This document shows positions 11,151 through 23,649 of a DNA stretch of 64,000 nt, one piece after another; the first letter of the stretch is position 1, and the number at the start of each line of letters is the position of its first letter. The notes below the pieces were generated by a model, which saw only the letters and a program-made list of their open reading frames with translations, searched no databases and was not told where the DNA came from. Origin of the DNA: Chloroflexota bacterium (GTDB taxonomy: Bacteria; Chloroflexota; Dehalococcoidia; Tepidiformales; Tepidiformaceae); contig JAPPBY010000011.1 of the NCBI GenBank assembly GCA_026702615.1, positions 1 through 64,000 on the forward strand, read 5' to 3'. Both the position numbers and the translations under genes were made by a program.

Positions 11151-11176
11151 GGTACTGTCTACCGTCAGGTTTGGCC
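11151..11176 (+). repeat. 26-bp repeat A, copy 1
   Basis: This matches 23619-23644 in the same orientation and 14860-14885 in inverted orientation, with one to three differences. At the 23-kb copy the sequence is the extreme C-terminal coding part of a serine recombinase (VLPTVKLG), so this copy is probably a recombinase 3' remnant or an attachment-type site. Confidence 0.8.
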
Positions 11177-11191
11177 GGGGGTGGTGGGCCT

Positions 11192-11212
11192 ACACGTACT
11201 GTACTGCGAACT
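11192..11212 (+). repeat. 21-bp repeat B, copy 1
   Basis: Identical over 21 bp to 23005-23025. Here it sits 15 bp after repeat A, whereas at 23 kb it precedes the recombinase remnant and repeat A follows it. Confidence 0.75.
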
Positions 11213-11375: not shown

Positions 11376-12638
11376 ATGACAGGAATCAGAGCCTCGTCCC
11401 TCCGCATCGTGACGATGGCCACGATGCTTGCTTTTGCTCTGTTGGTGGTGGTCTTGGGGACTGCCTGTCAGGACACCGAAGAAGAGGTCCCGCCGCCCAC
11501 CGACGATCGCGGGGCTAGTGTCCTGACCACGGTGGACGAGGGAGTCCCCGGTGTGTACGACACCCGGATCGTGTTCGGGCAGTCGGCGGCATTTAGCGGC
11601 CCCGCGCAGGCGCTGGGCCAGGGGATGCGGCTGGGGATACAGGCGGCGTTCCACGAGCAGAACCAGAAGGGCGGGGTGCATGGCCGCATGCTGGAGTTGA
11701 CCACTCTGGACGACCAGTATGAGCCGCACCTGGCTTACGCCAACACGCTGAATCTGATTAACAGGGAGCGCGTTTTCGCGCTCATTGGAGAGGTGGGAAC
11801 ACCCACCTCCCGCTCGGCGTCGCCATTGGCCAACGCGGAAGACGTGCCATTCATCGCGCCCTTTACCGGCGCCGGTTTCCTCCGGGACTCCGCGTTGGGG
11901 AACGTGGTGAACTTGCGTGCCTCGTACCATCAGGAAGCAGAGGAGATGGTGGCGCGCCTGACTGAAGACTTGGGGATCACCCGCGTCGCCGTGATGTATC
12001 AGAACGATTCCTACGGCCAGTCGGGGCTGGATGGAGTGGTTGAGGCGCTGGGGAAGCGCGGCCTGGAGCCAGTGGCCTTCTGGTACTACCAGCGCAACAG
12101 CGACGCGGTAAAGGCCGCCGTTTTTAACATCGTGGCAGCCGATCCCGAAGCGGTCATCATGATCGGGGCCTATGCCCCGGTTGCCAAGGCGATTTCCGTG
12201 GCCCGTGAGGACATAGACCCCATATTCATGGCGGTGTCCTTTGTGGGCAGCAACGCATTGGCGCAAGAGCTGGGGCCAGATGGCGCCGGCGTGTACGTCA
12301 CCCAGGTCGTGCCGCTGCCCGACGACACCAGCGTTCCCGCAGTGGCCGCCTATCGCGCCGCGCTGAAGGCGTTTGACGCCGATGCCGTGCCGGGGTTTGT
12401 CTCATTGGAGGGCTATCTGGCCGGGCGACTGGCAATTGTGGGTCTCGAGAAGTGTGGCAGGGACATCAGCCGCGACTGCTTCCTCGACGTCCTGCAACAC
12501 TCCGGGACAATCGACCTTAATGGGCTGACCCTCGAGTACGGCCCCGGCGACAATCAGGGCTCGGACGTGGTGTTTATGACCGTCATCGGAGATGACGGCA
12601 ATTACCACCTGGTCGACGATCTGGCAGAGGCGCGGTGA
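11376..12638 (+). CDS. Branched-chain-amino-acid-type substrate-binding lipoprotein
   Basis: This 420-residue protein has a lipoprotein signal (Cys31 in VVVLGTAC) and a Leu/Ile/Val-binding-type fold (Peripla_BP_6-like): VFGQSAAFSGPAQALGQGM, then LIGEVGTPTS, then VAVMYQNDSYGQSGLDGVVEAL. No permease or ATPase is adjacent. Instead its stop overlaps the start of a membrane sensor protein (GTGA), so it probably presents a ligand to that sensor, as TorT does for TorS; this is inference. Start chosen at ATG 11376 because AGGAG lies 8 nt upstream. Base composition looks less GC-rich than in flanking core genes. Confidence 0.85.
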   Translation: MTGIRASSLRIVTMATMLAFALLVVVLGTACQDTEEEVPPPTDDRGASVLTTVDEGVPGVYDTRIVFGQSAAFSGPAQALGQGMRLGIQAAFHEQNQKGGVHGRMLELTTLDDQYEPHLAYANTLNLINRERVFALIGEVGTPTSRSASPLANAEDVPFIAPFTGAGFLRDSALGNVVNLRASYHQEAEEMVARLTEDLGITRVAVMYQNDSYGQSGLDGVVEALGKRGLEPVAFWYYQRNSDAVKAAVFNIVAADPEAVIMIGAYAPVAKAISVAREDIDPIFMAVSFVGSNALAQELGPDGAGVYVTQVVPLPDDTSVPAVAAYRAALKAFDADAVPGFVSLEGYLAGRLAIVGLEKCGRDISRDCFLDVLQHSGTIDLNGLTLEYGPGDNQGSDVVFMTVIGDDGNYHLVDDLAEAR

Positions 12639-14800
12639 CGGCACAGCCCCGCAGAGCCGCTCCCGTGTTGATCGGCGCGCTCGGCGCGCTGGGAATAGTC
12701 ATCGCCTCGGCAGTGGCCGGCTGGCTGGTCATTGAAGACCTGGAGGCCAAGAATCGCGGCAGCGCAGACGCCGAGACTCTTGCTGACATCGCCGCGGTAG
12801 GCAAGCTATCGGGCATGGTGGCTGCAGCCTCATCCGTGCCAACCAACGTCCGGATGACCCCCGAAGGCATCGCCGAGGCGGGAACCGCCATCACCAACAA
12901 CCAGGACCGGTTGGCCGACCGTCTATCGGACCTGGAAGGTCGGGGTTATGACGGCCGCGTGGAGCAGGTAAGTCGACAGGTCGATCTGCTCACTGCCAAC
13001 GTGTCGCGGATAGAGGGTGAACGCCCCGCACTGTTGGAGGCCATCCTCACCGGGGAACGCAGCTGGCAGCAGCTGCTCTTTTCCACCAACCAGAAGCTGC
13101 TCCCCGCCATTAGTTCCAGCCTGGACAACCAGTTCTATTACGTGATGACGGGCAGCAGCGAATTCAGGGATGAAGTCCCTTCGGGTTTCGACCATCTGTC
13201 CGAGGAAGAGTTCCTTCGCTACTGGCATCTCGCCACCTTGCTGGATTGGACGTTCAGCGCCCACCGGAGCCTGCTGGCAGCGAATCTCAGCAGCCAGGAT
13301 GACCCAACGCGACTCGCCAGCAATGAAGAGAGTTTCGACACGGCCGCCCAGCGTCTGGAGCACAGCATCGCGTTCCTTGCCGAGCACGGTGGGCCAGAGC
13401 TGAATCCCGAGGTGATTCCCCTCTCCAATCGGTTGCTAGCCGCTGGCGCCGGAGAGAACAGCGCCCTGGACGCCATGAGGCTGAGGGCGTCGATGGTGGC
13501 TCGGGAGCGCCAGCTGATTGCGGCCAACGGTGAGATTCTGGCCGGGCTACAAGGGGAACTGGACAGCCTCGTTGCAGAGGTCAAGCAGAATTCGGCAGCG
13601 GCGGAGGATAGGCACGGGCAGGCCGCCTCCAGCGGGCGCATTGCCATCCTGGTGATAGCCATCGTTGGGATCGTTGGGACGCTGCTCGTTGCCGGTTACT
13701 TCGGCTTCAGTTCGCAGCGGCGAATATCAGCGTATCTGGCCGTCAACTCCCTGGGCGTGTTGGCGATAGTTATCGCCTCGGCGGTTGCGGTCTGGCTGGT
13801 CATCGACAATCTGGAGGATGAGAGCAGAGGCGGAGGCGACGTCGAGGTTCTGGCGGCGGCGGCGGACATAACCCGACGCTCGGGCGTCCTGGTGTCAACG
13901 ACGTCCGTTCCCAGCAACACCCGCATGACGTCCGAAGGCATAGCCGAAGCCAGGTCAGTCATCGCCAGCAATGACGAGGAGCTGGCCGACCAGCTGACCG
14001 TCCTGGAGGGCTGGGGCTATGACGACATCACGGAGCGCATGGGTCAGCGGATCGACTTGCTGACGGCCAACGTGTCGCGGATCGAGGATGAGCGTCCAGC
14101 CTTGCTGGAGGCCCTTCTGGAAGGGGAACGGAACTGGCAGGAACTCAGTCTCTCCACGAACTATGAGCTACTTCCCGCCATCGCTTCGAGCCTGGATAAC
14201 CAGTTCTATTACATGATGACTGGCAGGAGTGAATTCAGAACCGGGAATGCTTCGCGTTCCGACCATCTGTCCGAAGAAGAGTTCATTCGCTTCTGGCACA
14301 TGGCCACGTTGATGGAGTCGGTGTCCAGGGCGTACTGGACGCTCGACTTTGCCAACAGGCTGACGATTCCGGCGCTAGCGGCACGGGTGGAAGAAACCTT
14401 CGATACGGCGGCCCAGCGGATGGAACGCAGCATTGAGTATCTCGCGGAGAACGGGGGGGCGGAACTGAGTCCTGAGGTGATTCCCCTTGCCAATCAGTCG
14501 TTAGACGCGGGCGTTGGGGAGAACAGCGCCCTCGACGTCATGAAGTTGCGGACGTCCCTGGTGGCCAAGGAGCGCAAGCTGATTGGCGCCAACGGGCAAC
14601 TCCTGGCCGGACTGCAAGGGGAAGTGGATGACCTCGTTGCAGAGGCCAGGCAGAGTTCGGCGGCCGCGGAAGATCGGTACGAGCAAACGGTGTTCAATGG
14701 GCGTATCGCCATCCTGGTTATAGCCATGGTTGGAATCGTTGGGACGCTGCTGGTAGCTGGCTACAACGGCGTCCGTGTTCGCCGGGATGAAACGCGCTGA
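12635..14800 (+). CDS. Membrane protein with a tandem-duplicated periplasmic sensor domain and no output domain
   Basis: The 721-residue product is two homologous halves (about 1-355 and 362-721). Each has a transmembrane helix, about 300 residues of mostly helical extracytoplasmic domain, and a second transmembrane helix (TMs near 10-32, 334-354, 365-388, 689-712). Shared motifs include SVPxNxRMTxEGIAEA, LLTANVSRIExERPALLEA, SSLDNQFYYxMTG and DHLSEEEFxRxWHxATL. The fold resembles long helical input domains of sensor kinases and chemoreceptors (TorS/HBM type). It ends 12 residues after the last helix with no HAMP, kinase, cyclase or MCP module. It starts at a GTG overlapping the binding-protein stop, so the two are co-translated. 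Truncation of a larger kinase is possible because a recombinase-tail repeat lies 60 bp downstream. Confidence 0.7.
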   Translation: MTAQPRRAAPVLIGALGALGIVIASAVAGWLVIEDLEAKNRGSADAETLADIAAVGKLSGMVAAASSVPTNVRMTPEGIAEAGTAITNNQDRLADRLSDLEGRGYDGRVEQVSRQVDLLTANVSRIEGERPALLEAILTGERSWQQLLFSTNQKLLPAISSSLDNQFYYVMTGSSEFRDEVPSGFDHLSEEEFLRYWHLATLLDWTFSAHRSLLAANLSSQDDPTRLASNEESFDTAAQRLEHSIAFLAEHGGPELNPEVIPLSNRLLAAGAGENSALDAMRLRASMVARERQLIAANGEILAGLQGELDSLVAEVKQNSAAAEDRHGQAASSGRIAILVIAIVGIVGTLLVAGYFGFSSQRRISAYLAVNSLGVLAIVIASAVAVWLVIDNLEDESRGGGDVEVLAAAADITRRSGVLVSTTSVPSNTRMTSEGIAEARSVIASNDEELADQLTVLEGWGYDDITERMGQRIDLLTANVSRIEDERPALLEALLEGERNWQELSLSTNYELLPAIASSLDNQFYYMMTGRSEFRTGNASRSDHLSEEEFIRFWHMATLMESVSRAYWTLDFANRLTIPALAARVEETFDTAAQRMERSIEYLAENGGAELSPEVIPLANQSLDAGVGENSALDVMKLRTSLVAKERKLIGANGQLLAGLQGEVDDLVAEARQSSAAAEDRYEQTVFNGRIAILVIAMVGIVGTLLVAGYNGVRVRRDETR

Positions 14801-14859
14801 ACTCAAGACCCTCCTCACTGCCGTAGTTCGCGGTACGTTCGCCGCGGCCGGAAGTGGTG

Positions 14860-14885
14860 GGCCTAACTTGACGGTAGACAGTACC
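14860..14885 (-). repeat. 26-bp repeat A, inverted copy
   Basis: Reverse complement of the recombinase C-terminal repeat at 23619-23644. Read on the minus strand it encodes VLSTVKLGPP-like residues, typical of recombinase C-termini in this group. It lies 60 bp after the sensor-protein stop. Confidence 0.75.
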
Positions 14886-23046: not shown

Positions 23047-23649
23047 TGCACTGTGCGCGCCGCCTGCGTGACGCCGCGGCTCCAGGCGAAGCGCTTCGAG
23101 GAGACGATCCTCGGGCAACTCCGCGACCACATCCTCACCGAGTCCAACATCCGCGACCTTGTAGGCGTGCTCGACGAGGAGATGGACGGTGTGGCCCGTG
23201 AGCAGCGCCAGAACCTGGAGACGATCGAGGCCGAGCTCGAGGATGTGCGCCGTCGACTGAGCCGGGTGTGGCAAGTGGTCGAGAACACCGACCTCGAGAT
23301 GGCCGACGCCTCGGAACGCATCAAGGAGCACCGAGACCGCCAGCAGCGGCTAGAGATCCACGCCGACGAGGCGCGGGCGATGCTGGCGGAGCGGCGCGTG
23401 CTGCTGGACAGCGCCGAGACGGTGGCGGCCTTCGCCGAGGAGATGAGCGAGTTCCTGCGGACGAGCGAGATCACAGAGACGCGGGCGTTCGTGCGCTCCT
23501 TCGCAAAAGGCGATCCTGGTGCGGCCGGGCAGGCCACGATCCACTACACGACCCCGACGCCGCTGGACAGTCCCCTGCGCGGCGGCAAGGCCGAGGAGGT
23601 AGCCCTCGGCGGCGGATCGGTACTGCCTACCGTCAAGTTAGGCCGGATA
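23047..23649 (+). pseudogene. C-terminal fragment of a large serine recombinase
   Basis: About 200 codons match the C-terminal part of large serine recombinases: the end of the zinc-ribbon (AACVTPRLQAKRFEE), then a long coiled coil (ILTESNIRDLVGVLDEEMDG ... REQRQNLETIEAELEDVRRR ... SERIKEHRDRQQRLE), then an IHYTTPTPLDSP tail. The catalytic N-terminal domain with the Ser nucleophile is absent, and sequence upstream is unrelated, so the gene is broken. The frame continues into the antisense of tRNA-Val (RDSNPRPLRCKRSALTS), a known translation artefact. The position next to a tRNA gene fits an old integration. Confidence 0.8.
23619..23644 (+). repeat. 26-bp repeat A, copy 3
   Basis: Recombinase C-terminal coding sequence, six bases before the tRNA-Val 3' end. 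Direct repeat of 11151-11176 and inverted repeat of 14860-14885. Confidence 0.8.

Follow-up and report, generated by a model that had tools for sequence, protein, structure and literature searches.

A gene pair on the forward strand of the window (the 64,000-nucleotide stretch of Chloroflexota bacterium contig JAPPBY010000011.1 analyzed here) encodes a solute-binding lipoprotein, P0001, and a tandem sensor, P0002, that has membrane helices but no output domain. Based on sequence comparisons, the output-less forms to which P0002 belongs are a separate, old clade of single origin, and an intact kinase counterpart is encoded in the same genome. Our favored interpretation, which we hold tentatively and at a little under an even chance, is that the docking domain in these proteins captures its binding protein outside the membrane.

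The P0001 gene (11376..12638) encodes 420 residues of the Peripla_BP_6 or LivJ type (Pfam, E=1.1e-48); the nearest PDB chain is 4kv7, a LIV-type binding protein, and a lipobox-like AC can be read from the sequence after the signal helix. The P0002 gene (12635..14800) has a GTG start that overlaps the TGA of the P0001 gene and encodes 721 residues, in which two units are 62% identical over 350 residues. Four strong hydrophobic helices, called by hydropathy and not by a trained predictor, occupy residues 11-29, 336-354, 372-390, and 691-709. The first two flank unit 1 (~12665-12721 and 13640-13696) and the others unit 2 (~13748-13804 and 14705-14761). Between them lie the predicted extracytoplasmic helical (TorS/HBM-like) domain of unit 1 (12722..13639, from hydropathy) and the corresponding domain of unit 2 (13805..14704, from hydropathy and similarity to unit 1). 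The short linker that joins the units (~17 residues, 13697..13747, from the TM positions) is probably cytoplasmic, as the deduced topology would place it there.

P0002 has no Pfam domain above the cut-off and its tail past TM4, of ~12 residues, contains nothing recognizable. Neither HisKA nor HATPase catalytic domains were found in P0002 or any output-less relative. The genes adjoining the pair are, by reading, ABC exporter-like and MacAB-like, and no LIV-type ABC permease or ATPase was recognized beside P0001 or in the related loci that were read. The lengths of the two proteins and the unit alignment agree with the first-pass annotation, which had described two ORFs with a GTGA overlap and a two-unit TM-helical-TM protein; its assignment of P0001 as a Leu/Ile/Val-type binding lipoprotein without ABC partners also holds, as no adjoining ABC genes evidently belong to P0001, and so does its statement that no output domain follows the last helix.

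That annotation had also suggested that conserved two-unit, output-less homologues beside binding proteins would favor a new system, and such homologues exist. A collection scan identified nine other MAGs with the two-unit form (68-92% identity), most of them carrying the label Chloroflexota or Dehalococcoidia. A binding-protein gene precedes these orthologues wherever upstream sequence is present, and a 4-nt overlap couples both genes in two-unit and one-unit loci of differing genomic context. Despite their differing contexts, the two-unit orthologues end ~9 to 12 residues past TM4. Their C-terminal tails are short and variable, and the TM helices and linker are kept in every two-unit form. 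No neighboring gene was conserved across the output-less loci read. The dN/dS values between two-unit orthologues were 0.19-0.30 for the whole protein, low and similar in both units, and therefore indicate that the tandem sensor is not decaying; omega for the TM2-linker-TM3 region was 0.14-0.37 in the pairs tested. Two of the labels, Gemmatimonadetes (L041) and Actinomycetes (L039), do not establish the hosts, since a MAG bin may include stray contigs. The copy at L041:1958-4124, on the contig binned as Gemmatimonadetes, is 92% identical and has a frameshift in unit 1; given the low coverage, this may be a sequencing error or a stray contig.

The relatives of P0002 have several other architectures. 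Three MAGs (isolates named RHO) encode a one-unit form of 359 residues beside a binding protein, and G085 has a version of 351 residues. Searches of genomes that carry output-less loci identified sensor-binding-protein fusions of 670, 773, and 777 residues at three loci, which have an N-terminal anchor or signal and no second TM, and a secreted tandem form of 602 residues with a signal peptide only. In all, the second TM of each unit is missing from four relatives. A further occurrence of the secreted tandem is in G862, a genome in the same class as the Gemmatimonadetes MAG G397, where the operon (L215:5055-10530) has overlapping genes for a binding protein, the tandem sensor, and a TonB-dependent receptor (Plug 8.9e-14, barrel 5.5e-31) that adjoins TRAP transporter genes. 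Beside two of the fusions are genes (L080:9914-11266 and L081:662-1966) for proteins of 434-450 residues, whose sole region in common with the fusions is the N-terminal domain of the latter (120 residues).

In a tree of 65 sensor units, a single branch (100/100) split 39 kinase sensors from 26 output-less units, and the binding-protein tree had the same split at 100/100. The inner order is similar in both trees (fusions, one-unit, secreted, and two-unit forms), although the positions of the fused and secreted forms, which have long branches, are less sure. Profile scores were at least 313 bits for complete output-less units, versus ~150 or less for kinases. In the sensor tree, the first units of the two-unit proteins make up one group and the second units another; the tandem therefore has a single origin that predates the divergence of these lineages. 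The binding proteins of the two clades have 95 of 365 columns in common at 90% or more and only three fixed differences, so the type of ligand and the mode of docking are probably alike in both.

The homologue search also returned intact single-unit kinases, one of which is in the window's own genome (contig C33). Its operon (L010:8179-13585) encodes, in order, STAS, receiver-SpoIIE phosphatase, HATPase_c_2, Peripla_BP_6 lipoprotein, and TorS-like kinase proteins, an arrangement that is also present in G004, G002, G029, and G393. The kinase, P0003, has 727 residues with one sensor unit followed by HAMP, HisKA, and HATPase domains, and its best NCBIfam match is TIGR02956 (TorS; aligned residues 14 to 720). 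The gene order, binding protein then sensor, is that of the window pair, and both proteins are homologous to those of the pair (64% identity between the binding proteins and 29% between the P0002 and kinase sensors), whereas the single unit with its HAMP and kinase domains and the partner-switching-type output have all been lost from the pair. With its LivJ-type binding protein and TorS-like kinase, the operon is apparently a solute-sensing input to partner switching. The literature searched, which included few subscription papers, contained no description of an operon combining a binding protein, a TorS-like kinase, and partner switching. No sensor-less kinase of the TorS-like family was found in the window's genome, in which the sole close catalytic match is this intact paralogue.

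The proposed resemblance of the P0002 unit to TorS/HBM-type input domains is partly borne out, at the level of the family. The Pfam TorS_sensor_domain was matched in 4 of 17 members (best 8e-9), being below the cut-off in P0009 and absent from P0002; the best NCBIfam match of the kinase paralogue is TorS, as noted above; and the closest folds to a weak model are TorS-TorT, PilJ, and McpS, with TorS-TorT at or near the top of the lists. Because the mean pLDDT values of the two AlphaFold runs were 55 and 54, we use the topology and the fold list as supporting evidence only. An hhalign profile comparison with Escherichia coli TorS gave no support, HBM (PF16591) had no match at E values up to 1 in P0002 or the 17-member scan, and the sensor profile matched chiefly coiled-coil and helical proteins among PDB sequences. 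A TorS-type sensor is read by a binding protein that binds whether or not ligand is present, the HBM receptor CtpL is activated by the binding protein PstS, and TorS-TorT, LuxQ-LuxP, and LytS-XylFII are all precedents for sensors reading binding proteins (PMC6321045). Based on these precedents, we infer that the helical domain binds the binding protein. As for a TorS-type kinase, a partner binding protein is encoded next to P0002, by the overlapping P0001 gene, which is kept in the orthologues.

The kinase system occurs in about 7% of the genomes drawn at class and phylum level, and the output-less form in very few. The full kinase is also present in 11 of 13 genomes that carry the output-less form, although this sample is small, its genomes are related by descent, and MAG binning is uncertain. 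Of the two exceptions, one is a contig binned as Gemmatimonadetes and the other a genome that is not complete (G674, which seems to represent the same contigs in the phylum draw, has a completeness of 69%). In addition, G862 carries the secreted form, and no kinase was detected there. Within the window's genus, the kinase was found in seven of nine genomes searched and the pair only in the window's species. Plasmid records held no match to the tandem sensor, and phage records had one weak match (25%) to the binding protein.

Under the capture model, the pair would be a binding protein plus a docking domain that has been freed from the kinase which the domain drives in the parent system. P0002 would be a covalent pseudo-dimer of its one-unit relatives, anchored by the four TM helices. 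It would capture the binding protein, in either its empty or its ligand-loaded state, on the outer side of the membrane, with no signal being transmitted across. The fused and secreted relatives without TM2 lead us to infer that the group works without signal transfer across the membrane. Arguing against the model is the constraint on the four TM helices of P0002, which a mere anchor might not need. Where the intact operon is present, competition or co-reception would be most likely, with P0002 titrating ligand or binding protein off the kinase, or docking on the kinase itself. Relatives that lack the kinase may use this capture module with another partner, such as the TonB receptor encoded in its own operon; the existence of that operon indicates that the module can be put to another use.

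It is possible, although we consider it doubtful, that the family as a whole represents decoys or co-receptors, that is, an old, horizontally moving two-gene module that tunes the paralogous kinase/partner-switching pathway wholly outside the membrane. Based on the co-occurrence with the kinase, the paralogous kinase pathway is probably the target in Chloroflexota, where the pair would act on it as a decoy or co-receptor. A decoy effect cannot be general, because G862 has the secreted form and no kinase was found there.

Alternatively, P0002 could be a transmembrane receptor that lacks an output of its own, whose units read the binding protein and whose TM bundle and linker move an unrelated, separately encoded cytoplasmic partner. 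The conservation of the TM helices and linker in all two-unit forms, under purifying selection, is consistent with such a role, and the number of helices, four, would be that of a TorS-type receptor dimer. However, we consider it unlikely, as TM2 is entirely missing from the fused and secreted members of the clade, the C-terminal tails are short and variable, no neighbor gene is conserved across the loci, and no sensor-less kinase of the family was found in the genome. The same observations weigh on two functions suggested in the first-pass annotation: neither a ligand relay through the membrane nor a scaffold for a kinase encoded elsewhere is supported, given the four relatives without the second TM of each unit and the lack of a sensor-less kinase of the family in the genome. 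A scaffold for an unrelated partner is conceivable.

A role for the pair as an aid to ligand capture and uptake, holding a solute at the cell surface for a transporter with no link to signaling, is improbable as well. While P0001 is from the LivJ transport superfamily and the operon of the secreted form includes a TonB-dependent receptor gene and lies near TRAP transporter genes, no transporter gene is consistently beside the pair in the Chloroflexota loci read and the kinase paralogue frequently co-occurs.

That P0002 derives from a kinase gene cut short at the repeat near 14860 and now decaying is highly improbable: although the repeat is 60 nt beyond the stop codon and an intact single-unit kinase is present in the genome, orthologues in unrelated contexts have the same end point beyond the last helix, the two-unit forms are under purifying selection, the old output-less clade is separate from every kinase, and no kinase remnant was found downstream. 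P0002 was accordingly rejected as a kinase cut off at the repeat, on the basis of the common C-terminus, the dN/dS values, and the separate clade. Nor do homologues always run on into a kinase or MCP, as the nine MAGs with the two-unit output-less form and the same C-terminus demonstrate.

The repeat itself is real, as had been reported. It is a dispersed palindromic repeat with a 26-nt left arm (GGTACTGTCTACCGTCA...) at 11151..11176 on the forward strand and an inverted 26-nt right arm at 14860..14885 on the reverse strand, the two being 92% complementary. Two forward copies of a 20-nt direct repeat (family D8, 90% identical) bound the inserted segment at 11173..11192 and 14846..14865. Synteny with G004 and G007 extends up to 11135 and 10995, respectively, and is then lost, the downstream MacAB segment being on another contig in G004, and the joined form of the palindromic repeat is present elsewhere in the genus. 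The GC content of the pair is 62-63% (60-63% for the relatives' copies) versus 68% for the window. These features fit the insertion of a 3.65-kb segment into a palindromic repeat, with the repeat as the site of entry and not of truncation. The palindromic repeat (GGTACTGTCTACCGTCAAGTTAGGCC...) is also found at 23619-23635 of the window, and there are several copies per genome, with partly conserved flanks, in the genus and other MAGs searched, compared with almost none for a reversed control.

Among the known systems closest to the window pair is TorT-TorS of E. coli and Vibrio, a periplasmic binding protein and its sensor kinase, which also has a helical sensor domain read by a binding protein encoded beside it. 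Unlike TorS, P0002 has no HAMP, HisKA, HATPase, or receiver domain and has two units in tandem, and P0001 is of the LivJ and not the TorT type, with no BLASTP similarity to TorT. The HBM/PilJ chemoreceptor domains of McpS and PilJ have a similar helical fold, according to the fold search, but these are fused to MCP signaling domains and P0002 has no Pfam HBM match. Eukaryotic decoy receptors keep their ectodomain, have lost their output, and are paralogous to a signaling receptor of the same genome. The comparison of these with the window pair is one of analogy and not homology, since here a separate binding protein carries the ligand and decoy action is putative.

To our knowledge, bacterial sensor domains have nearly always been investigated as the input part of kinases or chemoreceptors, and the literature searched (with few subscription papers) contained nothing matching output-less or decoy sensors in bacteria. 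The clade described here, of a sensor domain and its binding protein, has persisted, duplicated, fused, and been secreted, in all cases without an output domain. This suggests that such kinase-less binding-protein/docking-domain pairs are the bacterial equivalent of decoy or capture receptors. Because sensor and binding protein are covalently linked in the fused forms, these offer a ready-made docking complex for structural studies of such sensors. If the pair does modulate the paralogous kinase, it would be a clear-cut bacterial example of receptor decoys or co-receptors that is open to experimental test, and if its role is in capture together with a TonB receptor, a sensing module would have been recruited into uptake.
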